A stretch of 64,000 nucleotides of DNA from Alteromonas australica. GTDB taxonomy: Bacteria; Pseudomonadota; Gammaproteobacteria; Enterobacterales; Alteromonadaceae. The translations under genes were made by a program, and so were the position numbers. Below, in pieces: positions 25,682 to 50,502 of the stretch (position 1 is the first letter of the stretch; each line of letters starts with the position of its first letter). Under the pieces are notes generated by a model. It was given only the letters and a program-made list of their open reading frames with translations, made no database searches and was not told the origin of the DNA. Where the stretch lies: contig NZ_CP008849.1 in the NCBI RefSeq assembly GCF_000730385.1, positions 4,030,001 to 4,094,000 of the forward strand, written 5' to 3'.

Positions 25682-27766
25682 TTACTGGATATACCCCGCA
25701 CGACGCATCACCGAGGTAGTTTGATACTGCGCTGTTTTCAACGCCTCTGATACTGATACCTGTTTCGTTAGTGCCATGTTCACTTGAACGCCCACTAAAT
25801 GTCCTATTGCGGTAAATTCAGCAATAGGCACAAACTGCTTACCAATTGCTGACGCACTAGTATCAGTATGGGAAAGTGCGCGTAACGCTGAATACTCATA
25901 GGATGCCGATGGGATAGCCCGTTGATAGCTCTCGTCATAAGTGGAGTGACGCGTACCAGGAAGTACTGCATATAAACCGTAGTTTTCTCTTAGCGCGTCA
26001 TTCAGCGCTTTCGACGTTAACCATAATGCCAGTTGTTGCGCAGCTTGTTTACGCTCACTGCTTGCTGGCACCGCAAAGTTCCAAGACCAAAACCATTGAG
26101 ACCCCCTTTTAACTGTGCCAATAGGCGCTTGTGTTACCCCGACATTTTTCGCCACACTGGATGTTTTGGGGTTTAAAATGCTACCACCTAATGAGGAAGC
26201 ATCCACGAAAAACGCAAGCTTTCCCTCGGCAAACAGCGCCTGATTCTCTTGCCAGCCTAAATCTTGGTGATTAGGTGGCCCAAAGTTGCCTAGCAAATCA
26301 ATATACGTACTCACCGCCTTGTGCCACTCTCGCGTGTTAATTTGTGGCTGCATTTGTTGATTAACCCATTGCCCACCATAGGTATTGACCATCACAGAAA
26401 GCAGGGCCATATTTTGCCCCCAGCCCACGCGGCTTCTAAGACCAATGCCATATACCTCTTTTTCAGGCTGATGCAGCTGCTTCACCATTGCGTACAATTG
26501 CTCGTAAGTCAGTGGCGACTGTATATTAAGGCCCGCGTTTAATAGCAAGTCTTTGCGGTAATAGGTTAGGGTGGTTTCAGCTACAAAAGGTAAGGCATAA
26601 AGTGTCTCTTCATACGTATTGGCAGTGAGCGCGGCGCCAATAACATCATCGATATCATAGCTTTCGGGCACATCGGCAAACGCTGCTAACTGGCCTTTCT
26701 TGGCCCAAATAGGCACATCATAATTCCCAAGCATAACCAGGTCATAGTTCGTCTGGTTCACTGCGACATCCCCTTGCAGGCGCTTCCTAAGTACAGTTTC
26801 ATCCATGACTCTCCAATCGATTGCAAGCTGTGAAAACGGCGTGTCATGGCTGCTTAAATACTGTATTACCTGTTTGATGCCATTAATATCCGGCACACCT
26901 ACGGTTAACGATGATGACGAAGGCGCCGCCTCATACATACCGTATTGCTTTAAAACTTCCTCTATTTCACCCCTAGCTTCTAGCGCATGATATGCCTCAT
27001 CAAAGCTTTCTATAATGTTTGCGGCATTGGGAGTGTCTTTTGATACCGCAAGGAAAAAAGGATGATCACGACTAAGCGCTTCTATAAAACGGTACTGCCC
27101 TTGCAAATGAGGGCGTTCGTTAACCAAGGTTTCTTTCACTAAATACTCATCTGCGAAAATCATGTCTACTCGGTCAAGCGCCAACATATCAAGTAACGAA
27201 GAAACGCTGCTTACCGCGATGGTGTCTATGTTACTTGCGTCAACCAGTGCCTGTGGTATCGGCGCGCCAGTGATATAGCCTATTCGTGTTAAACCAAGAC
27301 GCAAAAAGTGGGCGTTAATATCGCCATTTTTGACGGGGAGAATCGTGTCTACCTGGGTTGCAACCGGTACCAAATAGCCTATTTTTGTGCCCGGTATGGG
27401 GTTTGAGTAATATAAACTGTCTTTGTGTGCCTGATTAGAGCGCAGAGGAAAAACGCCTGCGGTTTTTCCCTGGGTAGCCATGAAAACAGCGCGGGTGTGA
27501 GGATAATGCTCAAATCGAGTGGAAATCGATTTCGAAGCAAACGCACGGCGAATAATTTCATTGACGTAACCTGCTTGAGGGTTATGCTCTGAACTGAAAG
27601 GACTGGCGTTTGAGGTGGAGAATATAAGAGGTTCTGCGACAACGAAAGCCGGCAATATAAGACAAAGTAACCATAAAAGTGGGCATACACTGAGCCTCAA
27701 TGCGCGTAGGCAAATATGACCGTTAATAAATTCATAATTAAAGCATCGCCCACGACTAAGTAGCAT
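25682..27766 (-). CDS. Fused SBP3-SBP1 extracellular solute-binding protein
   Basis: 694 aa, about twice the normal size. After a signal peptide (LLWLLCLILPAFVVAEP), residues about 45-275 form a family 3 (amino-acid type) binding domain (NPQAGYVNEIIRRAF, DRVDMIFADEYLVKET). Residues about 285-694 form a family 1 (sugar/oligosaccharide type) domain (YALPFVAETTLTYYRKDLLLNAG, LFAEGKLAFFVDASS, WFWSWNFAVPASSERKQAA). Both seem complete. No permease is nearby; the partner gene is the LLM enzyme. It may sense or deliver two ligands, or serve a transporter encoded elsewhere. Confidence 0.8.
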   Translation of the reverse strand: MLLSRGRCFNYEFINGHICLRALRLSVCPLLWLLCLILPAFVVAEPLIFSTSNASPFSSEHNPQAGYVNEIIRRAFASKSISTRFEHYPHTRAVFMATQGKTAGVFPLRSNQAHKDSLYYSNPIPGTKIGYLVPVATQVDTILPVKNGDINAHFLRLGLTRIGYITGAPIPQALVDASNIDTIAVSSVSSLLDMLALDRVDMIFADEYLVKETLVNERPHLQGQYRFIEALSRDHPFFLAVSKDTPNAANIIESFDEAYHALEARGEIEEVLKQYGMYEAAPSSSSLTVGVPDINGIKQVIQYLSSHDTPFSQLAIDWRVMDETVLRKRLQGDVAVNQTNYDLVMLGNYDVPIWAKKGQLAAFADVPESYDIDDVIGAALTANTYEETLYALPFVAETTLTYYRKDLLLNAGLNIQSPLTYEQLYAMVKQLHQPEKEVYGIGLRSRVGWGQNMALLSVMVNTYGGQWVNQQMQPQINTREWHKAVSTYIDLLGNFGPPNHQDLGWQENQALFAEGKLAFFVDASSLGGSILNPKTSSVAKNVGVTQAPIGTVKRGSQWFWSWNFAVPASSERKQAAQQLALWLTSKALNDALRENYGLYAVLPGTRHSTYDESYQRAIPSASYEYSALRALSHTDTSASAIGKQFVPIAEFTAIGHLVGVQVNMALTKQVSVSEALKTAQYQTTSVMRRAGYIQ

Positions 27767-29183: not shown

Positions 29184-31604
29184 TTAGAACTGTGCTTTAA
29201 ACGCTACACCAAAATAACGGTCTGCGTCCCTTGGAATTTGATAGCGAAAGTTATCACCGCTATACGTCGTCGCATAGCTTTCATCAAGTAAGTTTTTGGC
29301 GATTAAAGACACCCGGAAAGCATCATCTTTAAACGACATACCCACGCTAGCATTCACCATGGTGTAGTCAGGCAGTAACGAGGCCGCATTAAATTCACCA
29401 GTATTGCCTGGCAAGTCAGAATACTGCTCATCGGTATAGATATATGACGCATTGTAGTAAATGTCGAAGCCATACTCGGTTTCCATAATATACTCTGCTG
29501 ACAACGAGTATTTAAGGTCAGGGGAGAAAGGCACATCTAAGCCAGAGCGATCAGTACAGGCATCAGCGTCTACTTCAGCAGGGCAATTAAACTCGTCGAT
29601 TTCAGCTTTGGTGTAAGCCACGCCACCAATCAGAGTAAGATTGTCCGTCGCATTGTACATAAAGTCTAGTTCAACACCTTGGGTGGTGACGTTACCCGCG
29701 TTAGTTAAGCGAGTAATACAGGCACCGTCAGAACAGTCAAAGTTGTTCGCCTGAAAGCCTTCAATATCAGTGGAGAATACGGCCACATTTAGTAGTAAAT
29801 CACGGCTAGCGTATTTATAACCAATCTCATAGGCATCCGACTCTTCTGCCCCAATAGGTCTGCCATCATTCTCGGGGTTAAAGTTGTAATAGACGTTAAA
29901 GCCTGGACCTTTATAGCCTTGCGAATAAGTACCGTAAATCATTTGGCCTTTCGCGATATCGTATTGAATTCCAACACGACCAGACAAATTGGTTTCATCG
30001 ACACTCCCTGCAGCATCAGTATCTAATGTAGCAGGGCGCACGCCAACACCCGTGCGGCCGTATTCATCGTTATTCACACGCCGGTGGGTGTAAGACACTT
30101 CGTCATCGGTATAGCGCAATCCAAAAATTAAACGCATGTCATCGCTAAGATCGTAAGTCCCGTCACCGTACAAGGCCCAGTTGTTAAACTCTGTGCTCAT
30201 GTAAGCTGTGGCCGACACAATATCATTGGCGTTACAGCTTACACCCAATGAATCAGCATAAGCGCCTAAATCAGATAACGCGGTTGTTAAGTCGTCACCG
30301 GAAAGGTTGTTTTCGGCATAATTGGTCAATGCAGCATCTAACTGCCCAGCATTGTTTTGACAACTCGCGTCACGGGTAAAGCTTCGCTCGGAGTCCATAT
30401 TCCAGTAGAACAAGCCGGCTAAGAAATTGAAGGGGCCAGACAGGTTAGATGCAACGCGGAACTCCTGTGAAAACTGACTCCACTCTTGCGGGCCCACATC
30501 ATGTAATTGGAAAGGTGCGCCAAATACCGGTTCGTTACTGTCCCCCGCAATGGAAGTGAAATCGCCCTCACGGTATTCGGTATTTTCCCACGAACGCTGT
30601 GCAGTAATTGAGGTATAAGTATAGTCACCCACTGTTTTGTCTACTTGCACAGAAAACGCAGCATGATCGTCGATGGTTCGCGACTCAAAATCATGATCGA
30701 TTTGACGCTGATCCAAATCGATATCAGCGACACCATCAACAATGCCATCACTATTTGGCGCAGCTTCTGAATCAGGGTTACGACCACTTGGCAAGCCTTC
30801 TAAATCGGCACAGCAGTCATCGTCTGCGCTATAGAATTCGCTAATAAATTTAACCGTTAAATCGTCTGCAGGCTCGTAAAGCACAACCGCACGTGCCCCT
30901 TCACGATCGTAGCCATTTACCATTTCATTGTTATAGACATTTTTTATGTAGCCATCAAACTTGCCTTGGAAGACCGTTAAACTGGCAGATAATTCATCGG
31001 TTAAGCCACCGCTTACCGTCCCTTTCATACGGTATTCATTGTCTTGATAAAACTCAGTAGAAAGGCTGCCGGTTAGCTCTTGTGTAGGATCTTTCGTAGT
31101 AATATTCACCACACCTGCCGACGCATTTTTACCAAACAGCGTACCTTGCGGGCCTCGCAAAACTTCAATACGGTCAACATCGTAAAGGTCGGCAAACGCT
31201 TGACCCGAGCGCCCTAATACGACGCCATCCACGACAGTAGCGACACTAGGTTCAGCGGCAATACTAAAAGAAATGGTGCCAATGCCTCGCACGGTAAGTG
31301 CGGAGTTTCGAGTAGTGGTGCCTTTTCGGAAGCTGACGGAGGGGACTAACGCTTGAAGGTTTTCAACATTGTTTGCGAAAGCGGATTCAATCTGGTCGCC
31401 CCGTAGTACGGAAACCGCAACCGGTACATCACTGATGCTCTGCACACGTTTTTGTGAAGTTACGACGATTTGTTCAAACGACTTATCATCGTCTGGCGCT
31501 TGTGCTGGCTCTGCTTCTTGCGCGTAGGTGTGGGCGCTAACGAGCAGTCCAGACGTCATAGCAAGCGTGACCGCTTTACTTATGATTGATCGCTTTGTAT
31601 TCAT
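29184..31604 (-). CDS. TonB-dependent receptor of the sulfosugar regulon
   Basis: 806 aa; GGAG stands before the ATG. Signal peptide (LAMTSGLLVSAHTYAQ), TonB-box region (FEQIVVTSQKR), plug with RIEVLRGPQGTLFGKNASAGVVNITTKDP, and a barrel ending in FGVAFKAQF. It belongs to the large sphingomonad/alteromonad type of receptors that import sugars and other nutrients. It has its own promoter region with a copy of the shared palindrome at 31793, about 190 bp upstream. That places it with the symporter, GH31 and dioxygenase genes; the likely cargo is a sulfoquinovose-type glycoside (inference). Confidence 0.88.
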   Translation of the reverse strand: MNTKRSIISKAVTLAMTSGLLVSAHTYAQEAEPAQAPDDDKSFEQIVVTSQKRVQSISDVPVAVSVLRGDQIESAFANNVENLQALVPSVSFRKGTTTRNSALTVRGIGTISFSIAAEPSVATVVDGVVLGRSGQAFADLYDVDRIEVLRGPQGTLFGKNASAGVVNITTKDPTQELTGSLSTEFYQDNEYRMKGTVSGGLTDELSASLTVFQGKFDGYIKNVYNNEMVNGYDREGARAVVLYEPADDLTVKFISEFYSADDDCCADLEGLPSGRNPDSEAAPNSDGIVDGVADIDLDQRQIDHDFESRTIDDHAAFSVQVDKTVGDYTYTSITAQRSWENTEYREGDFTSIAGDSNEPVFGAPFQLHDVGPQEWSQFSQEFRVASNLSGPFNFLAGLFYWNMDSERSFTRDASCQNNAGQLDAALTNYAENNLSGDDLTTALSDLGAYADSLGVSCNANDIVSATAYMSTEFNNWALYGDGTYDLSDDMRLIFGLRYTDDEVSYTHRRVNNDEYGRTGVGVRPATLDTDAAGSVDETNLSGRVGIQYDIAKGQMIYGTYSQGYKGPGFNVYYNFNPENDGRPIGAEESDAYEIGYKYASRDLLLNVAVFSTDIEGFQANNFDCSDGACITRLTNAGNVTTQGVELDFMYNATDNLTLIGGVAYTKAEIDEFNCPAEVDADACTDRSGLDVPFSPDLKYSLSAEYIMETEYGFDIYYNASYIYTDEQYSDLPGNTGEFNAASLLPDYTMVNASVGMSFKDDAFRVSLIAKNLLDESYATTYSGDNFRYQIPRDADRYFGVAFKAQF

Positions 31605-31792: not shown

Positions 31793-31808
31793 TGTCTTAT
31801 ATAAGAGT
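31793..31808. promoter_or_regulatory. Probable GntR operator upstream of the TonB receptor
   Basis: TGTCTTATATAAGAGT matches the perfect palindrome at 35729 in 14 of 16 positions and contains the 12-bp palindrome TCTTATATAAGA. A second small palindrome, AAGATATCTT, lies 9 bp to its left. The rest of the 300-bp gap between the receptor and the symporter gene shows nothing else I can name. Confidence 0.75.
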
Positions 31809-31900: not shown

Positions 31901-33628
31901 TTATAGACCAGGCGTAGCAAGACGCTTTAGGCCTCGCTCGTATTTAAAGCGCCACCACTTCAGGCTAAAGCCGATAGCGACAAAACAGGTGCTCCATAAC
32001 GCGATAAGCGATGGAATAAAGAGATTGCTAATGCCGCCAACAAACCCCACAGGAGAGAACATGAGATAGAGGGTGACAATCAGGCCTACCAGCACTATGG
32101 CGCAGGGAATAGCGTAACGCCAAGGCGTCATATTCACTTCCGCTTTAGGTGTAAAGTGCCAGGGGGTTTGCAGGGGGTACAGACGGCCTATAACCAGCAT
32201 AATGGCGAGCTCTATGGCAAATAAGATGGCATAGATGTGAATAAAGTTAATGTCTACTTCCCACACAAATTTTAGCAATCCGTATGCAATCACATGGAAA
32301 ATAATGGCAACTTTTGCCGCTAAAGCTGGTACCCGTTTGGTAAATAAGCCTACCAACACAATGGTAATAACAGGAATGTTATAAAACCCGGTGAAGATAC
32401 GAATAATTTGCCACAGGCCCTCAGGGGCAAACATTAAAAGCGGAGCCGTAATAAATGACAAGACAGCAATAACCAAGCTGGTTATTTTGGCCACACGAAT
32501 AAGCTTCTCATCTGTCACTTTGTCTTTTTTCAGAGGCTTATAAACATCTAAACAAAACAGCGTGGCAGCACTATTGAGTAACGAGTTGAACGAACTGAAT
32601 ACTGCGCCCAGCAAAACAGCCAAAAAGAAACCTGACAAATATTGAGGTAGTACGTCTTTCACCAAATGAGGATAGGCTAAGTCGATGGTTTGTAAGTTCT
32701 CATCTTGATATAGATGATACGCAATCACACCAGGTAGCATCATCATAAAGGGCACTAGCACTTTAAAGTAACCAGAGAAAAGCACACCTTTTTGCCCTTC
32801 TACGAGGTTTTTAGCCCCCAGAGTGCGTTGAATCACATATTGGTTAGTCCCCCAATAAAACAAATTAGCGAGGATCATGCCGGTAAATATGGTGCCAAAG
32901 GGCACAGGATCGTCACGACTGCCTATGGCATTCAGCTTTTCTGTTTCTGTGGTGGCAATGGTCGATAACCCCTGACTGAAACTGCCATCACCCAGCGCGA
33001 TTAACCCCAATACAGGCACCAAGAGCCCTACAATTAACAAACCAATACCATTTATCGTATCTGAAACCGCCACGGCTTTAAGACCACCAAAAATAGCATA
33101 GAGCGCACCCACGGTTCCCACAACAATAATGGTAAAGACCAATGACGCTTCATAGCTAATATTGAGTAACCCGGGTACATCAAATAGCCTTAGAACAGCA
33201 ATAGAGCCTGAATACAGCACTGAAGGAATGGTGACCAAAGAGTAGCCCACCATGAAAAGCACCACCGTCATTCTTCGCACGCTGTCATCGAATCTGTTGC
33301 GCAAAAATTCAGGGAGCGTTGAAAACGCTCCTGCCAAATAACGGGGGAGAAAAATTAACGCCATAATGATGGTGGATATACCTGCGGTGACCTCCCATGC
33401 CATGGCGCTTAAGTTATAGCCAAATGCAGAGCCGTTTAGCCCGATGAGTTGCTCTGCAGACAAATTAGTGAGAATCATAGACCCAGCAATAAAGGTACCG
33501 GTAAGCCCTCTCCCAGCGAGGAAATACCCATCTTGAGTATTCACTTCGCCTTTGGTTTTCATGTACGAAATTACGGCCACAATAGCCATAAACGCCATGC
33601 ATGATAATAGGGTTAGGGTGATATCCAT
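31901..33628 (-). CDS. Sodium/solute symporter (SSS family), probable sugar importer
   Basis: 575 aa, with AGGAGTCGTAC before the ATG. About 14 hydrophobic segments are seen. Family traits include GRGLTGTFIAGSMILTNLSAEQLIGLNG near the start and the WGTNQYVIQRTLGAKNLVEGQKG loop, typical of SGLT-like sugar symporters. It is 16 bp downstream of the GH31 gene in the same transcript. It would bring the sulfosugar or its glycoside across the inner membrane with sodium, fitting a marine host (substrate inferred). Confidence 0.9.
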   Translation of the reverse strand: MDITLTLLSCMAFMAIVAVISYMKTKGEVNTQDGYFLAGRGLTGTFIAGSMILTNLSAEQLIGLNGSAFGYNLSAMAWEVTAGISTIIMALIFLPRYLAGAFSTLPEFLRNRFDDSVRRMTVVLFMVGYSLVTIPSVLYSGSIAVLRLFDVPGLLNISYEASLVFTIIVVGTVGALYAIFGGLKAVAVSDTINGIGLLIVGLLVPVLGLIALGDGSFSQGLSTIATTETEKLNAIGSRDDPVPFGTIFTGMILANLFYWGTNQYVIQRTLGAKNLVEGQKGVLFSGYFKVLVPFMMMLPGVIAYHLYQDENLQTIDLAYPHLVKDVLPQYLSGFFLAVLLGAVFSSFNSLLNSAATLFCLDVYKPLKKDKVTDEKLIRVAKITSLVIAVLSFITAPLLMFAPEGLWQIIRIFTGFYNIPVITIVLVGLFTKRVPALAAKVAIIFHVIAYGLLKFVWEVDINFIHIYAILFAIELAIMLVIGRLYPLQTPWHFTPKAEVNMTPWRYAIPCAIVLVGLIVTLYLMFSPVGFVGGISNLFIPSLIALWSTCFVAIGFSLKWWRFKYERGLKRLATPGL

Positions 33629-33644
33629 GTACGACTCCTAGGGC

Positions 33645-35711
33645 TTATGCCGGCCAAAAGTGGGTGTTGGTCATGTCCATATCGGTATGCTGAACATCAG
33701 GTCCCATCACAATCTGCTTACCTTTTCGGATAAACACCGCCACTTCATCAAGGGCTAGCGATTCCTCTTTGTACTGACCTCCACCTACGGTTTCGTCTGT
33801 GCCCAATCGCACCCATTCACCTTCAGGAAGGTAGTATTTTATTTTCCCACCAGGGACCACACATGGCACTACGAGCAAATCATCGCCGCACATAAATTGC
33901 TGTTCAAAGCTATGGCATACGGGCTGTTCTGGGAAAGCGAGTGCCATGGCGCGCTGCACAGGCAAGCCCGTCTTCGATGCTTTTTCAGCCGTTTGCTTTA
34001 AATAAGGAATAAGACGGTAACGCAGCTTTAGCGCGTCAAACACGGCTTGGGATGCTTCATCGCCGTACGACCAAGGTTCGCGAGGGCCGATACCATGAAG
34101 GCGCATATGTGCGCTAAATACAGACGCTTGCGCCCAACGAACATAAAGCTCTGCATCACGGGTATCTTTATAAAAACCGCCAATATCGGTAGCAAAGAAA
34201 GGCCCACCAGACATACCCCATGATAAACTACCGCGAATACTGGCAGCTAAACCATGCCAATCGGCCTGTGGGTCGCCGCCCCATTGTGATGGATAGCGTT
34301 GGCTGCCCGTCCACGCCGAACGACTAAACAAAAACGGCCCCGTTTTACAGTATTTTTCAGCCGCTTCGTAAACACAGCGGTTGTACAACATACTGTAAAC
34401 ATTGTGCAGACGATTGCCTGAGTCACCGCTGTACGACACCATATTGTCGTCTTCTAGCTGCTCGCCAAAATCAGCCTTAATCATATCTACACCCAGTTCA
34501 AAAAACGGCTTGTGCGAGGTTTTCCAAAATTCGTAGGCTTCAGGATGAGTAAAGTCTAAAATGCCAGAATCAGGCAAAGGCGTAAGCACTTCACCAAACG
34601 GACTTAAATCCCACTCGTAGCGATAAGCTTCGCCGGTACGCTTGTCTTTAATTAACCAGCCTTTTTCTGCGGCCTTTTTATACAGTGGGTTTTTCACTGA
34701 AATCATTGGGTATTCCCATACGCAAATTTTAAAGCCTAGGGATTTCAGTTCATCAATAACCGGTTGCGGGTCGGCGTAGCGTGTTGGATCCCACTCAAAT
34801 GCAAAACGGGTATCGGTATCTTGCCAAGCGCGGCCATCTAATGTGATCACATCGCAGGGCATATTTTTTTCGCGGACCTCCCTTGCCACCGACAAGAGTT
34901 CTTCTGCGTCTTTGTAGTAGGCCTTTGACAAAATAACACCAAGACTCCAAGTAGGAGGCGTTGGGGCAAAGCCTGTTAGCTGACTATAAGTATTAATGCT
35001 TTGCGCGGGACTATCTTGGTGATAGATGAACATGTCTAGCACCGCATCTTCAACCAGACACACATAAGCGCGCTGCGACCAAAGCGCGTAGCCTACGCCA
35101 TGGGTAACAGGTGCAGGGGTATGTACAAACAGGTTCCAGCCTTCGGGGCTCCACGCATAAGGGGTATTTTTGTAGGATTTCTCGGCATTCACGCCCAGCG
35201 CATCATGATTGTACGAACGTACTAGCTGCCCCCGTTTATCTAACTTGCCCCATTTTTCACCTAACCCATAAACAGCTTCGTCGTAGTTAAGTTCTAAACT
35301 GATTAACCAACCACTGTCGGTTTTTGCAAAAGGCGGCAGACGATGTTGGCGCACAAAATGACCATCCGTCGCGCTCTGCTGTACTAAGGTGTCGTTCTTG
35401 TACAGTTTAAAATGCAACGGAGAAGCATATAGCTCAAGACGGTAATCGCCCCCTGTTAACGTGCTGTGGGATTTATCGCCTTTAAGGGTAAGCCTTTCAT
35501 TTTGTGGAACCGTGCACAGCATTTTGAATTGATCATCTTGGCTTTCACCTGCTTGAAGGCGCATTCCAAAGGCGCTAATGGAAAGCTTGAGTTCGCCATA
35601 CTGGGTAGGAACCACAAGCGTGGTATCGTTTGCAAGAAACGGCTGCGCTGTGATGTCGGCAGCCACAATATCATTCCAATTTGGTTCAATTAGACTAAAC
35701 GCGTTACCCAT
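33645..35711 (-). CDS. Glycoside hydrolase family 31 (YicI/alpha-xylosidase-like)
   Basis: 688 aa, no signal peptide, so cytoplasmic. N-terminal beta-domain, then the TIM barrel: nucleophile Asp in MIKADFGEQ, acid/base Asp in WGGDPQADWHG, FEWDPTRYADP and GPFFATDIGGF. By eye it is closest to YicI-type alpha-xylosidases. In sulfoquinovosidase YihQ an Arg-x-x-Trp pair (R301/W304) just before the WxW segment binds the sulfonate. The aligned stretch here reads DTDTRFAFEW, which lacks that pair but has a nearby Arg. Its operon and operator tie it to sulfonate genes, so it may be a divergent sulfoquinovosidase or act on another alpha-glycoside. Confidence 0.85.
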   Translation of the reverse strand: MGNAFSLIEPNWNDIVAADITAQPFLANDTTLVVPTQYGELKLSISAFGMRLQAGESQDDQFKMLCTVPQNERLTLKGDKSHSTLTGGDYRLELYASPLHFKLYKNDTLVQQSATDGHFVRQHRLPPFAKTDSGWLISLELNYDEAVYGLGEKWGKLDKRGQLVRSYNHDALGVNAEKSYKNTPYAWSPEGWNLFVHTPAPVTHGVGYALWSQRAYVCLVEDAVLDMFIYHQDSPAQSINTYSQLTGFAPTPPTWSLGVILSKAYYKDAEELLSVAREVREKNMPCDVITLDGRAWQDTDTRFAFEWDPTRYADPQPVIDELKSLGFKICVWEYPMISVKNPLYKKAAEKGWLIKDKRTGEAYRYEWDLSPFGEVLTPLPDSGILDFTHPEAYEFWKTSHKPFFELGVDMIKADFGEQLEDDNMVSYSGDSGNRLHNVYSMLYNRCVYEAAEKYCKTGPFLFSRSAWTGSQRYPSQWGGDPQADWHGLAASIRGSLSWGMSGGPFFATDIGGFYKDTRDAELYVRWAQASVFSAHMRLHGIGPREPWSYGDEASQAVFDALKLRYRLIPYLKQTAEKASKTGLPVQRAMALAFPEQPVCHSFEQQFMCGDDLLVVPCVVPGGKIKYYLPEGEWVRLGTDETVGGGQYKEESLALDEVAVFIRKGKQIVMGPDVQHTDMDMTNTHFWPA

Positions 35712-35728
35712 TTATACATTACCTTTAA

Positions 35729-35744
35729 TGTCTTATATAAGACA
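35729..35744. promoter_or_regulatory. Perfect 16-bp operator upstream of GH31-symporter operon
   Basis: TGTCTTATATAAGACA is a perfect palindrome ending 17 bases before the GH31 start codon. A protein bound here would block the leader or promoter, so repression is likely. Similar sites at 31793 and 37649 define the proposed regulon. Confidence 0.85.
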
Positions 35745-35822: not shown

Positions 35823-36575
35823 TTAAAAAGAGACATTCCGTACAATCAGGGTAAAACCACTTAAAGAAAGCATACTTAGCGCTAATAAGCGAACAAAAGA
35901 CGCGGGTATGCGTGCAGCTATAAGACGGCCAATACGAGTAAATATTAAAATAACAGGCACGGCGCACAGGGTCGACACAAAAATTTCTTCGGAAGGCAGT
36001 GTTCCAAAAGGCACAATGGCTAGCCTCAGCAACGAGGTGACGCTAAACACCGCCAACAAGGTAAAGCGAATTTCATGAATGGGCCAATGTTGGCGATAGC
36101 ATTGAAATACCACCGGCGGACCAAAGGTAGAAAATAGCCCCCCAAGCAAACCGCCCAACGCTCCCGCTATTGTAAATCCGGTCGCACTACCTGAAGGTAC
36201 GCTATGTTTACGTTTTGCCAGCAGAAGGCCACAACAACTAAGAATAGCCACCCCAAGGATGATGTTAAGCCAGGTTGCCATGCCAGCCGAAAGGTATTCT
36301 AGTAATGCATAACCCACCCCCATCAGGGGAATACCGCTTACGAGTAAAAGCGTAAATGCTCGCCTGTTCACTTGCTCGGTATTTTTAAGTACTAAGCTTA
36401 CCGAGTTGAACAGACTTAAAAAACTCACCACAAAGGTGGTGGCGGTAAGCGGCATAATATTAAACAGGGTAAAACTCGATACCACCATAAGACCAAACCC
36501 AAAACCGCTTAAGGTTTGCAGAAGCGTAGCCAAACCAAGAAGCGCAAACATGGGGAGGAGTGTTTCCAGTAGCAT
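35823..36575 (-). CDS. TSUP (TauE/SafE) family exporter, probable sulfite exporter
   Basis: 250 aa with about eight hydrophobic segments and the TauE/SafE pattern LLGLATLLQTLSGFGFGLM at the start and ALGGLLGGLFSTFGPPVVFQ in the middle. Members export sulfite, sulfoacetate or related anions. Divergent from the GntR gene and next to GH31, it fits a role in expelling sulfite freed in the cytoplasm by the dioxygenase, or moving a sulfonate. A second, unrelated exporter (39729) is in the same locus. Confidence 0.8.
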   Translation of the reverse strand: MLLETLLPMFALLGLATLLQTLSGFGFGLMVVSSFTLFNIMPLTATTFVVSFLSLFNSVSLVLKNTEQVNRRAFTLLLVSGIPLMGVGYALLEYLSAGMATWLNIILGVAILSCCGLLLAKRKHSVPSGSATGFTIAGALGGLLGGLFSTFGPPVVFQCYRQHWPIHEIRFTLLAVFSVTSLLRLAIVPFGTLPSEEIFVSTLCAVPVILIFTRIGRLIAARIPASFVRLLALSMLSLSGFTLIVRNVSF

Positions 36576-36647: not shown

Positions 36648-36674
36648 AAAAACTAAGCATTGGGTTACGGTTAC

Positions 36675-37424
36675 ATGTCTTCATCACAATTCGACCACAA
36701 ACTTGGCGGTCCAAGCCTTGCCTTCCAACCTCTTTACCAGCAGGTTGCTGAATACATTAAGCAACTTATTGTAGAACGCAGGTGGCAACCGGGCGAAATG
36801 CTTCCAAGTGAATTCAAGCTAGCCGACGAATTTAACGTAAGCCAAGGCACTGTAAGAAAAGCCCTAACCTTGTTAACCGACACCAAAATAGTTAATCGCC
36901 GGCAAGGTGTTGGCACATTTGTATCTGAGCACACCGCACAAGATGCTTTGTTTCGCTTTTTTCCATTGCAAGCCGATGGAAAGGGAGCCGACTTACCCAA
37001 AGCCGAGCTTTTGAATAAAGCGTTAGCAGAGCCATCTGAAGCTGTTCAACGGGCATTATCTTTATCACCTAAAGATAAAGTCGTTAAGCTAAACCGCAGA
37101 CGTATTCTTGATAACGAGTTCTGCATGCTCGAAGCCGTATATTTACCCGCCAAGCTTTTTGCCGATATTGAAAAGCGGGAAGATATACCTCATACGCTGT
37201 ATCACTTTTACCAAACCGACTATAACCAAACGGTATTTAAAACCCGTGACAGCATTAAAGCGGTACTCGCGTCAAAAAGTGATGCGAAAAGCCTGAATAT
37301 CGAAAAAGGCACACCTTTACTTCTGGTTACCCGAGTCACCGAGTCGATTGACGGTACACTCATAGAATACCGTGAAAGCAAATGTCGTACTGATCACTAC
37401 CATTACCAGGTTGAATTAGATTAA
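36675..37424 (+). CDS. GntR-family (HutC/UTRA) regulator of the sulfosugar locus
   Basis: 249 aa from ATG 36675; a TTG at 36660 is the alternative and neither has a strong ribosome-binding site. The N-terminal winged helix contains WQPGEMLPSEFKLADEFNVSQGTVRKAL, and the UTRA ligand domain follows (KLNRRRILDNEFCMLEAVYLP, TPLLLVTRVTESIDGTLIEYRESKCRTDHYHY). HutC-type regulators bind short palindromes and are released by a pathway sugar or intermediate. Its central position and the matching palindromes on both sides make it the likely repressor of the whole cluster. Confidence 0.92.
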   Translation: MSSSQFDHKLGGPSLAFQPLYQQVAEYIKQLIVERRWQPGEMLPSEFKLADEFNVSQGTVRKALTLLTDTKIVNRRQGVGTFVSEHTAQDALFRFFPLQADGKGADLPKAELLNKALAEPSEAVQRALSLSPKDKVVKLNRRRILDNEFCMLEAVYLPAKLFADIEKREDIPHTLYHFYQTDYNQTVFKTRDSIKAVLASKSDAKSLNIEKGTPLLLVTRVTESIDGTLIEYRESKCRTDHYHYQVELD

Positions 37425-45299: not shown

Positions 45300-45539
45300 A
45301 TGTCTGAACAATCAATTTTTGAGCAAATTAAATTGGCACTCGCTGATGCACCACGGAATCAGTATACGGCTGAGTTACACCTGCAAATGATCAAATTCGC
45401 GGATGAACTCAAGCACATAACTTCAAAAGAATTCTGTGAAGGTGTAGGGCTTAAACAAAGTTTAGGAACAGAGTTCAGTAAGATGCGTAACTTGACCCAT
45501 CGTTTAAAGGCTGCTGGACTCGACACTTTAAAATTGTGA
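45300..45539 (+). CDS. Small HTH-like protein, probable island regulator
   Basis: 79 aa. The central and C-terminal part (HITSKEFCEGVGLKQSLGTEFSKMRNLTHRLKAAGLD) reads as a helix-turn-helix followed by a helical hairpin, a composition I associate with small control proteins in mobile islands. No catalytic motif is seen. It lies directly behind a perfect palindrome and 58 bp before the DUF262 gene, so control of the defence-like operon is likely. Function inferred from context. Confidence 0.65.
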   Translation: MSEQSIFEQIKLALADAPRNQYTAELHLQMIKFADELKHITSKEFCEGVGLKQSLGTEFSKMRNLTHRLKAAGLDTLKL

Positions 45540-45597
45540 TCGTAAGTATTAAAACTCTATCAGCTCAAATTGCTAGACAAATATCTAAGGAAACTAC

Positions 45598-46731
45598 ATG
45601 ACTGACATAACAGAATCAGAGCTTGATGAAGAAAAAGTCGATCCTAATGCGGTTGACGATGAGCCAGAACTACTTGACGAAGTGATGCACCCCTTCAACC
45701 CGACAGATATCGATATTGTCGTGGAGCCTAAGTCATTAGACGCTTTGATTAAGCGAATTCAGCATGACGAAATAGATATGAATACTGATTTTCAGCGACA
45801 TGCAGAATTGTGGGATAACCGTAAAATGAGTCGGTTAATAGAGTCGATCTTGATTCGGTTTCCGTTACCAGCATTCTACTTCGATGCGTCAGATGAAAAT
45901 AATTGGCTGATCGTAGACGGCTTGCAACGGTTATCTACGATTCGAAAATTTGTATTAGATAAAAAGCTTCGCCTTAATGGTCTTGAGTTTTTAACCGAAC
46001 TAAACGGTAAAACTTTCGACAAGCTGCATCGCCAATATCAACGTCGTATTGAAGAATGTCCCGTCACTGTGTACATGATCAAACCTGGTACTCCAGAAGA
46101 TGTTAAGTATTCGGTTTTTCGCCGTATCAATACGGGTGGCTTGACGTTGAACAACCAAGAAATCCGTAATGCGCTTGCAAAGCCACGAGATCGAGAGCTG
46201 TTGGAGATGTTGGCCAATTCAGAATGCTCCAAAGCCATGCTCGGTGATCTATCTAAACGTATGAAAGACCAGGAATTAGTATTGCGGTTTTGGGCTTTTT
46301 ATCGCTTTGATTACCTTGACTCCAAGAACAAAAAGGAAATCGCCTCTTTTTTAGATAAAGCGATGGAAGATATCAAGAAAGGTGATGATGTTTATCGTGA
46401 AGATTTTAAGACGAATTATTCAACGGCGATTCAACGTTGTTGTCAACTTTTAGGAAAATCTGGGTTTGAAAAGGACCCGTCATCAAATTCACGAAAGCGT
46501 TCTAAAAACTCAACTTTGTTTGAAGTTTGGATGGTTGCACTAGCTAGGTTGCCAGACACAGAATTTAACTACCTTCTGGCTAAGCAGAGCGATTTTCAAG
46601 AAAAAGCACGAGCGCTTCTGAAAGATGGTGAGTTTTTTAACGCTATTACTTATTCGACACAGAAAAAAGACCATGTTGAAAAGCGTTATGAAAAGGTGAA
46701 CTCGTTAATTCAGGATATGCTGAATGATTGA
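45598..46731 (+). CDS. DUF262-domain protein (ParB-like nuclease fold)
   Basis: 377 aa, with AAGGAAACTAC before the ATG. An acidic N-terminus precedes the DUF262 domain (about 40-200) with DFQRHAELWDNRKMSRLIESIL, the IVDGLQRLSTIRKF signature (usual DGQQR), and FRRINTGGLTLNNQEIRNAL. DUF262 binds nucleotides and, in GmrSD-type systems, works with a DUF1524 nuclease domain; that domain is absent here. The remaining C-terminal half is helical and unassigned. It overlaps the next ATPase gene by 8 bp, so the two are coupled. An anti-phage role is likely. Confidence 0.88.
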   Translation: MTDITESELDEEKVDPNAVDDEPELLDEVMHPFNPTDIDIVVEPKSLDALIKRIQHDEIDMNTDFQRHAELWDNRKMSRLIESILIRFPLPAFYFDASDENNWLIVDGLQRLSTIRKFVLDKKLRLNGLEFLTELNGKTFDKLHRQYQRRIEECPVTVYMIKPGTPEDVKYSVFRRINTGGLTLNNQEIRNALAKPRDRELLEMLANSECSKAMLGDLSKRMKDQELVLRFWAFYRFDYLDSKNKKEIASFLDKAMEDIKKGDDVYREDFKTNYSTAIQRCCQLLGKSGFEKDPSSNSRKRSKNSTLFEVWMVALARLPDTEFNYLLAKQSDFQEKARALLKDGEFFNAITYSTQKKDHVEKRYEKVNSLIQDMLND

Positions 46732-47833
46732 ATTTATTAATATAAAGAATTTTAAAACTTTATTGAATGCTAGTTTCCCTCTTGGGAAGTTGAATCTATT
46801 TTCAGGCTTAAATGGAATGGGGAAATCTACCCTTGTACAGAGCCTATTACTTTTAAGGCAATCATACGAACGCAATACCCTAAAATCAAAGGGACTTTTA
46901 CTGAACGGCGATTACGTAAACATAGGTACAGGCAAAGACGCGCTTTCTAGTTTTAGTGAACAGGAAGAGATTATCTTCACCGTGAAGTGGAGTGATAAGG
47001 AACTGCCAGATCTATTCGAGTTTGACTACCAGCACGACTCTGATTTGCTACCACTAAGGAAATCAGGTATCGGCACTAATTCAGAGCTCCTAAGTCTATT
47101 CAATTCGAATTTTCAGTACTTATGTGCCGATAGATTAAGCCCCCAAAGTCACCATCAATTGTCTGAGTTTCATATCCGTGATTTGAAATCTCTCGGTCAC
47201 CATGGTGAGTTTGCCGTTCACTTTATCGCTGTAAATGGAGCTAAAGATCTAGAAATTTCCGCATTACTTCATCCCAATGCGGTATCAGGAACTTTACTTG
47301 CCAACATTGAAGCTTGGATGTCTGATATTACTCCAGGCTTAAAAATCAAAGCGGTGGCGCAACCTCAATTCAATTCAGCCAGCCTAAGTTATTCATTTAA
47401 CCAAGGTAAAGAAACTACCGAAGAATTTAAACCTCAGAATGTAGGCTTTGGCTTGAGTTACGTGCTACCTGTCGTTACCAGTATTCTGAGCTCAGCAAAA
47501 GGTGATTTGCTGATTATTGAAAATCCAGAATCACACCTGCATCCAGCAGGACAATCATTGATGGGTAAGTTGTGTGCGATTGCTGCGAATAATGGTGTAC
47601 AACTAATCGTTGAATCTCATTCTGATCATTTCCTAAATGGCATAAGAGTGGCTGTGAAGCAGAAAGTGGTTGCCGCTGATGATGTAAAGGTCTTTTTCTT
47701 ACAGCGAGATGTTTACAATTCTATTCATGCTTCAGAAGTCATGTATCCCAATATTGATGATGAAGGTCGCATTGACTGCTGGCCGGAAGGCTTCTTTGAC
47801 CAATGGGATAAGGAGCTGGATCAGCTGTTATGA
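46724..47833 (+). CDS. AAA/ABC-type ATPase with DUF3696 features
   Basis: 369 aa. Walker A GLNGMGKST near residue 32; Walker B-like LLIIENPESHLHPAGQ near 262, where the ENP-H pattern is that of DUF3696/AAA_15/AAA_21 proteins. IVESHSDHFLNGIR follows, and the C-terminus is rich in acidic and aromatic residues. The family is related to the ATPase part of OLD nucleases but no Toprim domain is present. Overlaps at both ends (8 bp and 4 bp) bind it into a three-gene unit with DUF262 and the unknown 325-aa protein. Confidence 0.9.
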   Translation: MIEFINIKNFKTLLNASFPLGKLNLFSGLNGMGKSTLVQSLLLLRQSYERNTLKSKGLLLNGDYVNIGTGKDALSSFSEQEEIIFTVKWSDKELPDLFEFDYQHDSDLLPLRKSGIGTNSELLSLFNSNFQYLCADRLSPQSHHQLSEFHIRDLKSLGHHGEFAVHFIAVNGAKDLEISALLHPNAVSGTLLANIEAWMSDITPGLKIKAVAQPQFNSASLSYSFNQGKETTEEFKPQNVGFGLSYVLPVVTSILSSAKGDLLIIENPESHLHPAGQSLMGKLCAIAANNGVQLIVESHSDHFLNGIRVAVKQKVVAADDVKVFFLQRDVYNSIHASEVMYPNIDDEGRIDCWPEGFFDQWDKELDQLL

Positions 47834-48807
47834 GCAATGGAATTGTACTGAATCATCACTCTTTGCCGTTTGCTAACAAAGAGGATGCAGATAATGGATT
47901 ATTGGCTTTCTTTAATGTTCTTAAAGTTTGCCGAGCCTCAGGTTTAAAAATTTTGTTGGTCGATGAGGATCAAGACAAATCACTAATGGGACTGGAACTG
48001 GCTGAAGGATACTTTATTCGCAATTGGTTTGTGTCAGCAAACAAGGTTGCGGTTCAAGCAGATTGGTGTCGATTTCTTAGATCTCTCGAAACGAAACAAC
48101 CTCTCTTCGAAACTGTTGATATTGAAAGAGTTAGTGATACTGTAGAAGTAGGTTTGCCGGGGGAGACCTCTGGCAAGAGAGTACTATTAGCCGCATTTTA
48201 TTTTGAAACTTTTCTTGCCAGCTTCACCGCGTTAGCAGCATGGATTAATAGCCATATTAAAGTATGGGTTCTCAATCTAGAAGCGACGCCAGAGCAATAT
48301 GAAGAAAATCTATTAAACCTGAGTAACACTGCGAGTTTGGAAGCCCATTTTGAAGAACTCAAACAGCGTCGTAATGCGTTATTAAATACCGCTAAGAATA
48401 TTTGGTTACAAAGAAATGATTTATTTCCTCATATCACTTTGTTGTCAAACCAAATAGGTACGAGCCTTCAAGGTTGGTCTGCTCGACAAGATGTATTATT
48501 CAAAGCACGTAATGCGCTATATGTGCTGGAGTCTTTCGGTGCGAAATGGCTTAAGGGAGACTATGTTGAGTACCGACATGAGTACTTGAGAGCTTTAGGT
48601 TTGGCAGCAGAAGTAAGCGGCGAATCGAAAAGCGTCAATAACGATCCCAAAAAGAAGAAAGAACGCATGTTTTGGTTAGATGATGGGCGACAGCTCTATT
48701 GTGAAAATCACGTAAAACTACCTGATGGGTATCGACTACATTTTTATGCAGATAACGATAAGAAGAGAATATACATCGCATATTTGGGACCACACTTGAC
48801 TCTATAA
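47830..48807 (+). CDS. Unknown third protein of the DUF262-ATPase operon
   Basis: 325 aa; its ATG overlaps the ATPase stop (ATGA). The N-terminal part has a predicted alpha/beta start (LKILLVDEDQDKSLMG), the middle is helical (YEENLLNLSNTASLEAHFEELKQRR), and the C-terminus has a basic patch DPKKKKERMFWLDDGRQLYCENHVKLPDG resembling a small beta domain. I recognise no known family by eye. In three-gene systems of this type the third protein is often the effector, which makes this the piece most worth structural prediction. Confidence 0.8.
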   Translation: MSNGIVLNHHSLPFANKEDADNGLLAFFNVLKVCRASGLKILLVDEDQDKSLMGLELAEGYFIRNWFVSANKVAVQADWCRFLRSLETKQPLFETVDIERVSDTVEVGLPGETSGKRVLLAAFYFETFLASFTALAAWINSHIKVWVLNLEATPEQYEENLLNLSNTASLEAHFEELKQRRNALLNTAKNIWLQRNDLFPHITLLSNQIGTSLQGWSARQDVLFKARNALYVLESFGAKWLKGDYVEYRHEYLRALGLAAEVSGESKSVNNDPKKKKERMFWLDDGRQLYCENHVKLPDGYRLHFYADNDKKRIYIAYLGPHLTL

Positions 48808-48912
48808 TAGTAATTATTACAAATTGCTAACTTAGCGCTGCTGTATTAGGAAATTAAATTATAAATAGCCTACTGTTCTAGAGGTTTTTATTACACCCAA
48901 GGAAGTATAATA

Positions 48913-49443
48913 ATGAAAAGGAAATTAATATTCATAGGCGGTATCCATGGTGCCGGTAAATCGACCCTCTGTAAAAAGCTGATTTCAGAACTGAAAATTC
49001 CCCATTATTCTGCTAGTGAGCTTATAACTAGAGCCCAAAAAGGTCTTTATACAAAAAATAAGACAGTTAAAAATGTAACGAAAAACCAAGACGTTTTGTT
49101 AGTAGCACTAAATGAATTTGTGGATGAGCCCTGTATACTCCTAGATGGACACTTCGCATTGTTCGATGCAAAACAGAAAGTTCAACAAATTCCAGTAGAA
49201 ACATTTGCCTCTATTGAGCCTATAGCTATGTGTGTTCTGACGTCCGATATTGAATTAATTCTAGAGAGAATTGCCGCGAGAGACGGAATTCAACATGACA
49301 AATCTGCATATGAAGCTTTAAGCGATAGCGAACTAGCTAATGCAAAGTCAGTAGCCAAGAGGCTGAATATTCCTCTTTTCATCCATGATACCAATAACGA
49401 TATATTAGAGCTGACTCAATTTATCAGCTCAAACTTGGAGTAA
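48913..49443 (+). CDS. P-loop kinase-like ATPase (AAA_18/33 type)
   Basis: 176 aa, with AAGGAAG upstream of ATG 48913. Walker A GGIHGAGKSTLCKKL at the N-terminus, LLDGHFALFD near residue 78 as a second conserved stretch, and RIAARDGIQHDKS as a lid-like arginine region: an adenylate-kinase-like nucleotide or small-molecule kinase fold. It heads a tight group with a GNAT-PUA-like fusion and an ASCH protein. A role in modifying a nucleotide or RNA base is conceivable; nothing specific can be read. Confidence 0.8.
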   Translation: MKRKLIFIGGIHGAGKSTLCKKLISELKIPHYSASELITRAQKGLYTKNKTVKNVTKNQDVLLVALNEFVDEPCILLDGHFALFDAKQKVQQIPVETFASIEPIAMCVLTSDIELILERIAARDGIQHDKSAYEALSDSELANAKSVAKRLNIPLFIHDTNNDILELTQFISSNLE

Positions 49444-49446
49444 GCT

Positions 49447-50502
49447 ATGGAAAGTCTTAACTATCTACCCTTCAGACAAATAAATCTACACGATTCATTT
49501 TTTGATACATTGAGAGCCGATTATGCTGAGTTTCCGACTTGGTTTTTACGTAAAGCAGAGCAAAATGAATTTGCATACGTGTTAATCGATGGTCACTCAA
49601 TAGATGGATTCATGTACTTGAAGGAAGAAATAGGTCCAGTTACCGACATTTCCCCATGCTTACCACTGGGCAGACACCTTAAAATTGGTACTTTCAAGTT
49701 TAACTCGCATGGAACTCGCCGAGGAGAGCGGTTTATCAAAAAGATATTTGACCATGCGTTAGCTCAAAAGGCTGATAACATATATGTTACTGTATTCGAT
49801 AAGCATCATTATTTGAAAAGCTTATTCGCTAAATACGGATTCAAAGTACATGGTACAAAAAACACTACTAATGGCACGGAATCAGTTATGGTTAGGTCTA
49901 TGCGAAATCAGCTAGGCTCCACACTTGATACATATCCTTTCGTCAAACTTAGCCAAGCGAACCAATATTTATTATCCATTTACCCTCAATTTCATTCCAG
50001 GATGCTACCTGATTCGATCTTGGACAATGAAACTCACGATATCATTCAGGACGTTTCACATACTAACAGCATTCACAAGATTTACATATGTGGGATGGAT
50101 TTAGTGTCTTCGTTTAAAACCGGTGACAACATAGTTCTTTATCGCACTAGTGACAATAAAGGGCCTGCTCGTTTTCGTTCAGTAGCTACATCTATTGGCG
50201 TTGTAGAAGAATACAGAAATATTCACGAATTCAGTTCATTACAAGAATTCATCGATTATTGCAGGCCGTACTCTGTGTTTATGGACAACGAACTAGTACG
50301 TATATTTAACGAAAAAAGATACTGTCATATTATCAGATTTACATATAATGCAGCCCTTTCAAGACGTATTACTCGTGGTCACCTGATAGATGAAGTAGGG
50401 CTTGATGAACGTGAATACTGGGGAGCTATGCAGTTAACAGCCCAGCAGTTTAGACACATTGCTAGTTTGGGAGGAGTCAATGAAAGTCTTATTGTCGATT
50501 AA
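49447..50502 (+). CDS. GNAT acetyltransferase fused to a PUA/EVE-like domain
   Basis: 351 aa; its ribosome-binding site GGAG overlaps the stop of the kinase gene. Residues about 1-160 look like a GNAT acetyltransferase (RRGERFIKKIFDHALAQKAD, IYVTVFDKHHYLKSLFAKYGF). Residues about 205-330 resemble an ASCH/EVE/PUA-type nucleic-acid-binding fold (SSFKTGDNIVLYRTSDNKGPARFRSVATSIGVVEEY, HIIRFTYNAA). The combination suggests acetylation of, or in the presence of, a modified nucleic acid. It overlaps the next ASCH gene by 23 bp. Not a family I can name. Confidence 0.7.
   Translation: MESLNYLPFRQINLHDSFFDTLRADYAEFPTWFLRKAEQNEFAYVLIDGHSIDGFMYLKEEIGPVTDISPCLPLGRHLKIGTFKFNSHGTRRGERFIKKIFDHALAQKADNIYVTVFDKHHYLKSLFAKYGFKVHGTKNTTNGTESVMVRSMRNQLGSTLDTYPFVKLSQANQYLLSIYPQFHSRMLPDSILDNETHDIIQDVSHTNSIHKIYICGMDLVSSFKTGDNIVLYRTSDNKGPARFRSVATSIGVVEEYRNIHEFSSLQEFIDYCRPYSVFMDNELVRIFNEKRYCHIIRFTYNAALSRRITRGHLIDEVGLDEREYWGAMQLTAQQFRHIASLGGVNESLIVD

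Follow-up and report, generated by a model that had tools for sequence, protein, structure and literature searches.

A second clade of GH31 glycosidases, probably alpha-sulfoquinovosidases, in marine Gammaproteobacteria

Introduction

Sulfoquinovose (SQ) is the sugar of plant and algal sulfolipid. The window analysed here, a stretch of 64,000 nucleotides from an Alteromonas-type genome of 4.31 Mb, carries a gene for a retaining alpha-glycosidase of family GH31 within what appears to be a sulfosugar locus. The question raised by this locus is which glycoside the enzyme cleaves. The sulfo-ASDO pathway, described with the enzymes SqoD and SquF, releases sulfite (PMC12890257). It is called characteristic of Oceanospirillaceae and Alteromonadaceae in PMC13372026, where Ye 2023 and Ma 2025 are cited, and the presence of an SQ pathway in Alteromonas is already known. 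According to PMC10755693, a single GH31 class of sulfoquinovosidase was known, and GH188 enzymes are found in sulfo-SDO clusters without GH31. The kinetics of YihQ-type enzymes are reported in PMC11968277 and altered sulfonate sites of GH188 enzymes in PMC11465081. No account of the window-type GH31 clade was found in the open-access literature searched.

The reading put forward here, at a probability of roughly 80% on sequence evidence, is that the window GH31 evolved as an alpha-sulfoquinovosidase separately from the YihQ lineage and cleaves imported sulfoquinovosyl glycerol. A sulfonate-recognising glycosidase was probably invented at least twice within family GH31.

A GH31 gene among genes for sulfosugar use

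The genes of the locus are arranged as follows.

29184..31604, minus strand, TonB-dependent receptor, likely for outer-membrane uptake (PF00593, PF07715)
31901..33628, minus strand, sodium:solute symporter (SSF) that likely carries the sulfosugar glycoside across the inner membrane (PF00474; NF007790 at 736 bits, above its cut-off of 401)
33645..35711, minus strand, GH31 retaining alpha-glycosidase of 688 residues, intact, ATG start, proposed alpha-sulfoquinovosidase
35823..36575, minus strand, TauE/SafE family protein, likely sulfite exporter (PF01925)
36660..37424, plus strand, GntR/UTRA regulator of HutC type (PF00392, PF07702; listed start TTG, ATG at 36675)
37741..38706, plus strand, aldo-keto reductase (AKR), proposed SquF-like 6-dehydroglucose reductase (PF00248; listed start GTG, ATG at 37753)
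38716..39723, plus strand, TauD/TfdA Fe(II)/2-oxoglutarate dioxygenase, proposed SqoD-like SQ dioxygenase (PF02668)
39729..40733, plus strand, YeiH-type putative anion exporter (PF03601; TIGR00698 below its cut-off)
40767..42068, plus strand, SorA-like molybdenum sulfite dehydrogenase (PF00174, PF03404; NF052245 at 238.8 bits, cut-off 600)
42093..42467, plus strand, SorB-like cytochrome c (NF052246 at 28 bits, below its cut-off of 93)

All three GH31 domains, PF13802, PF01055 (296.7 bits) and PF21365, score above their curated Pfam cut-offs in the 688-residue protein, which is the single PF01055 match in the genome. It belongs to GH31 and not to GH188, and no GH188 gene occurs in the same genome at E<=1e-20. 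The N-terminus shows no evident signal peptide, so the enzyme is presumably cytoplasmic. Two catalytic aspartates can be assigned by alignment.

34470..34472, minus strand, codon of nucleophile D414, aligned with YicI D416 and YihQ D405
34272..34274, minus strand, codon of acid/base D480, aligned with YicI D482 and YihQ D472

The pair is invariant in an alignment of 44 sequences made up of the window protein and 43 of its 44 relatives; the omitted relative, L007, has the loop motif discussed below in other alignments.

The SqoD-like function of the dioxygenase is proposed from its family and gene context. Its solved relatives, 9yut and four sister entries (E 2.6e-63), are labelled TauD/TfdA-like only; they may represent an SQ dioxygenase structure. 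Elsewhere in the window, a 694-residue reading frame (25682-27766) has a C-terminal domain of the bacterial solute-binding type (SBP_bac_1), its N-terminal part being without a Pfam name at E<=0.001. Just past the sulfosugar locus (44380-50502), a protein with a TnsA-like N-terminus, a GmrSD_N (DUF262) protein, an AAA_15/DUF3696 ATPase and an AAA_17 protein form a row that resembles an island of defence or mobile genes.

A separate clade beside YicI

One contig scan yielded 44 loci with relatives of the window GH31, at 47-95% identity. Their hosts include Alteromonas, Pseudoalteromonas, Colwellia, Paraglaciecola, Arenicella, Porticoccaceae, two Alphaproteobacteria and one member of Pyrinomonadaceae, among others. 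The nearest relatives are from Alteromonas (L004, 95% identical), a genus in which the gene is present in 23 of 59 genomes at E<=1e-100.

A maximum-likelihood tree was built from 60 GH31 proteins, 20 of them from the window clade and 11 of YihQ type. The tree is midpoint-rooted, and the program flags long branches around YihQ and YicI. The window clade receives support of 100/100 and is joined to YicI and relatives from Acidobacteria at 100/98; the 11 YihQ-type sequences form a clade of their own elsewhere (100/100). Profile comparison with hhalign gives E 1e-122 against the YicI group and 5.5e-53 against the YihQ group. Membership of the YihQ clade is ruled out by both tree and profiles. The best PDB match by sequence is YicI, so that sequence matches, profiles and tree all bear out the sequence-only reading in its description of the protein as otherwise YicI-like. 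The predicted structure also ranks neutral-sugar enzymes (5f7c at Z 42.7, YicI entries 8t7z at 40.9 and 1xsi at 39.7) above the sulfoquinovosidases (5ohs at 37.4, 8r56 at 37.1, 5aee at 37.0 and 6pnr at 36.7), a gap of a few Z units that was not taken as proof.

These affinities bring in the first alternative, that the enzyme is an alpha-xylosidase or alpha-glucosidase acting on some other alpha-glycoside of algae, which enters the cell, or is induced, along with the sulfosugar. Its closest solved relatives are indeed YicI and other GH31 enzymes for neutral sugars, and its best NCBIfam model is that of an alpha-xylosidase (NF007940). The score against this model, 434.5 bits, falls short of the cut-off of 606 and argues the other way. 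The context of the most divergent relative, L044 (47-48% identity), can also be cited for a xylosidase, through an SDR gene whose product resembles xylose dehydrogenase.

The L044 contig deserves a description of its own. In the stretch L044:209-5262 the GH31 gene adjoins this SDR, which is nearest to xylose dehydrogenase at a score below the cut-off, with no AKR or TauD gene beside it. Its other neighbours, again with scores below the cut-offs, encode an Ldh_2 protein closest to L-sulfolactate dehydrogenase and a 2-hydroxyacid dehydrogenase, and the context is perhaps that of a different sulfosugar route. The L044 enzyme keeps both arginines discussed below, R294 in DGRA and R302 in TRF.

An inserted arginine at the sugar pocket

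In YihQ, R301 and W304 are taken to be the sulfonate-binding residues, as the sequence-only reading also stated, and both are conserved in all 11 aligned YihQ-type sequences. That reading held them to be absent from the window protein and quoted DTDTRFAFEW in their place. The quoted segment corresponds to residues 298-307, and neither of two alignments places an Arg/Trp pair there. With MAFFT, YihQ R301 falls opposite D300 and W304 opposite F303; in the hhalign profile alignment both face a gap, and YihQ R302 pairs with S297. On these alignments the register of the loop against YihQ appears ambiguous.

A more telling feature than those pointed out in the sequence-only reading is an invariant arginine, Arg294, inserted within D292-G-R-A.

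34791..34838, minus strand, codons of the clade-diagnostic loop D292-W307, DGRAWQDTDTRFAFEW, from the alignments
34830..34832, minus strand, codon of R294, an inserted Arg flanked by the counterparts of YicI C307 and F308, from the alignment; proposed sulfonate ligand

Nine loop positions (D292, G293, R294, A295, T301, R302, F303, F305 and W307) are invariant in the alignment of 44. In the profile alignment with YicI, D292 pairs with D306, G293 with C307 and A295 with F308, leaving R294 unpaired. In YicI, C307 and F308 are presumed to border the -1 subsite on its C6 side and to close the C6 pocket. The window protein has G293-R294-A295 instead of this Cys/Phe feature, which counts against a xylosidase, and it retains the equivalents of YicI D306, W345 and K414. 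R294 has no Arg counterpart in 16 sequences of the YicI group and Acidobacteria, nor in the 11 YihQ-type sequences.

From these alignments, the balance tips slightly towards R294, together with R302, holding the C6 sulfonate in place of YihQ Arg301/Trp304. A second possibility leaves the enzyme a sulfoquinovosidase and changes the grip: R302 and the aromatic residues F303 or F305 would hold the sulfonate as a shifted version of the YihQ site, and R294 would not. This fits the equal invariance of T301-R302-F303 and F305 and the ambiguous register. It is set back by the presence of an Arg at the R302 column in L096-L098, sequences from outside SDO contexts, and by the restriction of R294 to the clade in the comparison given above, and we consider it rather unlikely. 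In the AlphaFold model (mean pLDDT 86.7) residues 295-298 lie below 50, so that the position of Arg294 is unproven by the prediction. The wider proposal is a tentative one: a second clade of GH31 sulfoquinovosidases, common among marine Gammaproteobacteria and sporadic among Alphaproteobacteria and Acidobacteriota, would grip the C6 sulfonate by means of an Arg inserted at the place where YicI-like relatives have the Cys/Phe pair that closes the pocket.

Conserved neighbours

The AKR and TauD genes both lie beside the GH31 gene in 38 of the 44 loci. Other neighbours are the GntR regulator (39 loci), the symporter (37), the TonB receptor (33), YeiH (25), TauE (14), SorA (14) and SorB (13). The patchy occurrence of SorA and SorB suggests that sulfite is oxidised for energy in some hosts and exported in others. 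Six loci are without the AKR/TauD pair: L027 and L042, and four that lie on contigs of 3-11 kb (L034, L040, L044 and L045). In the genomes of L027, L042 and L045 the dioxygenase gene is found elsewhere, adjoining an AKR gene; a search for it gave nothing in the genomes of L034 and L044 and no more than a weak match (E 1e-7) in that of L040.

Some neighbours bear on the nature of the solute. Seven loci miss the symporter; six of these have DctM and DctP genes of a TRAP transporter instead, which fits an anionic solute, and the seventh is L044, a short contig. L024, L025 and L030 carry SulP genes. Genes for a glycerol-3-phosphate dehydrogenase of GlpD type lie near four of the 44 loci (L023, L025, L030 and L032) and directly adjoin GH31 in the last three of these, which fits a glycerol aglycone; of the two that were scored, L032 is above the curated cut-off and L025 below it. 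The small number of such loci, and the lack of a GlpD-type gene in the window, speak against this reading. When the TonB receptor of the window (29184-31604) is compared with those of L004, L008, L010 and L019, some Alteromonas have a receptor at about 88% identity and others one at 61-62%; since GH31 is 82-95% identical where the receptor is at 61-62%, receptor swapping at a fixed locus is indicated.

A palindrome common to three operons

A 14-bp palindrome, GTCTTATAYAAGAC, is common to the upstream regions of the GH31, AKR and TonB operons.

35730..35743, unstranded, palindrome GTCTTATATAAGAC, 18 bases upstream of GH31
37650..37663, unstranded, palindrome GTCTTATACAAGAC, upstream of the AKR-TauD operon
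31794..31807, unstranded, palindrome with one mismatch, upstream of the TonB receptor

At up to one mismatch these are the only three sites in the 4.31 Mb genome, and all lie in a single 6-kb stretch inside the sulfosugar locus. A reversed control pattern had two and three matches in the same genome, so that the count alone is not above chance, and a scan of the window at three mismatches was also within expectation. The number of sites is unremarkable, but their clustering within 6 kb is informative.

The same palindrome recurs across the relatives, counted after dropping loci with less than 150 bases of upstream sequence. At up to one mismatch it stands upstream of GH31 in 27 of 42 loci, of AKR in 30 of 37 and of TonB in 21 of 33 (32 of 33 at up to two mismatches). 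Shuffled control palindromes averaged 0.29, 0.56 and 0.03 loci; their maxima of 27 and 28 are believed to stem from the true palindrome, which the shuffled set was able to contain. The AKR-TauD pairs that lie far from GH31 in the genomes of L042 and L027 (L121 and L122) have the palindrome upstream as well. A slightly wider pattern, at up to one mismatch, had no match in 273,304 background bases. It was likewise absent from L119, L120, L123 and L124-L132 and from the GH31 loci L040, L043, L044 and L045. The GntR/UTRA regulator is the probable reader of these palindromes. A locus and a palindrome held in common with genes presumed to cleave a C-S bond speak against a xylosidase that is only carried along.

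Exchange for dedicated sulfoquinovosidases

A search with the TauD protein at E<=1e-50 gave matches in 7 of 369 genomes of Gammaproteobacteria. Among 385 genomes from the class to which the L032 genome belongs it matched 3, and among 296 from a single family of the same order, probably Vibrionaceae, it matched 9. Identity is at least 50% in 14 of these 19 matches. A window-type GH31 lies close by in six of the 14 (G000, G015, G872, G980, G1072 and G426). In three others (G982, G1177 and G1231; loci L119, L124 and L125) a GH188 gene directly adjoins AKR-TauD, and in one (G228; L128) a true YihQ gene lies within the AKR-TauD cluster. YihQ is encoded elsewhere in the genome in two (G1715 and G1592), and no glycosidase of GH31-type, GH188 or YihQ was found in the remaining two (G1568 and G252). 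The GH188 protein of L119 matches the solved SqgA structures 8qc3 and 8qc2 (PMC10755693) at E about 1e-96 (1.4e-96). This count leaves aside L120 (TauD at 35%, no AKR) and L131 and L132 (TauD at 34-35%, GH188, no AKR), and the inspection did not cover two further TauD matches, G1721 and G1756.

In none of the locus stretches examined do two of the three glycosidases occur together. In four AKR-TauD loci (L126, L127, L129 and L130) the surrounding 10 kb or so are free of glycosidase genes, and two of their genomes carry YihQ elsewhere; that the pathway can do without a glycosidase is a point against the preferred reading. A second sulfoquinovosidase hidden elsewhere in the hosts of the window-type enzyme was considered and, within the sensitivity of the searches, ruled out: GH188 was found in none of the 45 genomes with this GH31, and true YihQ in none of the genomes of the 44 relatives (best score 158 bits, against 855-860 for real YihQ), several of these genomes being incomplete MAGs.

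The sequence-only reading had left two options: either the recognition of sulfoquinovosides evolved anew in another subgroup of GH31, or the enzyme acts on a different alpha-glycoside imported alongside the sulfosugar. The former is favoured by the locus and palindrome held in common with TauD and AKR and by hosts without GH188 or YihQ. The latter loses ground where the TauD/AKR pair is joined elsewhere to GH188 or true YihQ. With dedicated sulfoquinovosidases taking its place in sister loci, an alpha-xylosidase or alpha-glucosidase becomes improbable. Less probable still is an enzyme that would use the same Arg pocket for the alpha-glycoside of another sugar with an anionic C6, such as sulfofucose or a uronic acid. 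An arginine in the C6 pocket would suit any such anion, and a catabolic pathway for sulfofucose has been published (PMC12421959), but the AKR-TauD pair is also seen together with genes for GH188 and YihQ-type enzymes, for which SQ is the known substrate (PMC10755693). An independently evolved alpha-sulfoquinovosidase is the preferred reading.

Proposed pathway

The TonB receptor and the symporter would import sulfoquinovosyl glycerol, which the cytoplasmic GH31 enzyme would split into SQ and glycerol by the double displacement usual in GH31, D414 serving as nucleophile and D480 as acid/base. The TauD-type dioxygenase would break the C-S bond of SQ to give sulfite and 6-dehydroglucose, and the aldo-keto reductase would turn the latter into glucose. 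Sulfite would be exported by the TauE- and YeiH-type carriers and oxidised to sulfate by the SorAB-like pair. If the preferred reading is true, GH31 invented sulfoquinovosidase activity twice, with different sulfonate grips, and the motif DGRAWQDxxTRFxFEW finds marine degraders whose enzymes are otherwise labelled alpha-xylosidases.

Comparison with known enzymes and pathways

With the GH31 sulfoquinovosidases YihQ, A. tumefaciens SQase, E. rectale SftG and BmSQase the window enzyme shares the GH31 fold and the catalytic Asp pair, and it appears to fill the same genomic role beside SQ catabolic genes. In contrast to the YihQ type, it belongs to a separate clade, lacks the aligned Arg301/Trp304 and has the extra Arg294. 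The alpha-xylosidase YicI is the closest solved enzyme by sequence and profile, and the window clade stands separately beside its group. NAD-dependent SqgA of family GH188 is unrelated in family and mechanism, yet its homologues occupy the same slot next to AKR and TauD in L119, L124 and L125. The nearest likeness at the level of the pathway, by description, is the Sulfo-ASDO/SDO system of Marinobacterium aestuarii, with SqoD and SquF. Both pair an Fe/2-oxoglutarate dioxygenase with an NAD(P)H reductase; in the window, the dioxygenase (PF02668) and oxidoreductase (PF00248) genes are co-located as direct neighbours, and a SorAB-like pair for sulfite oxidation is added.
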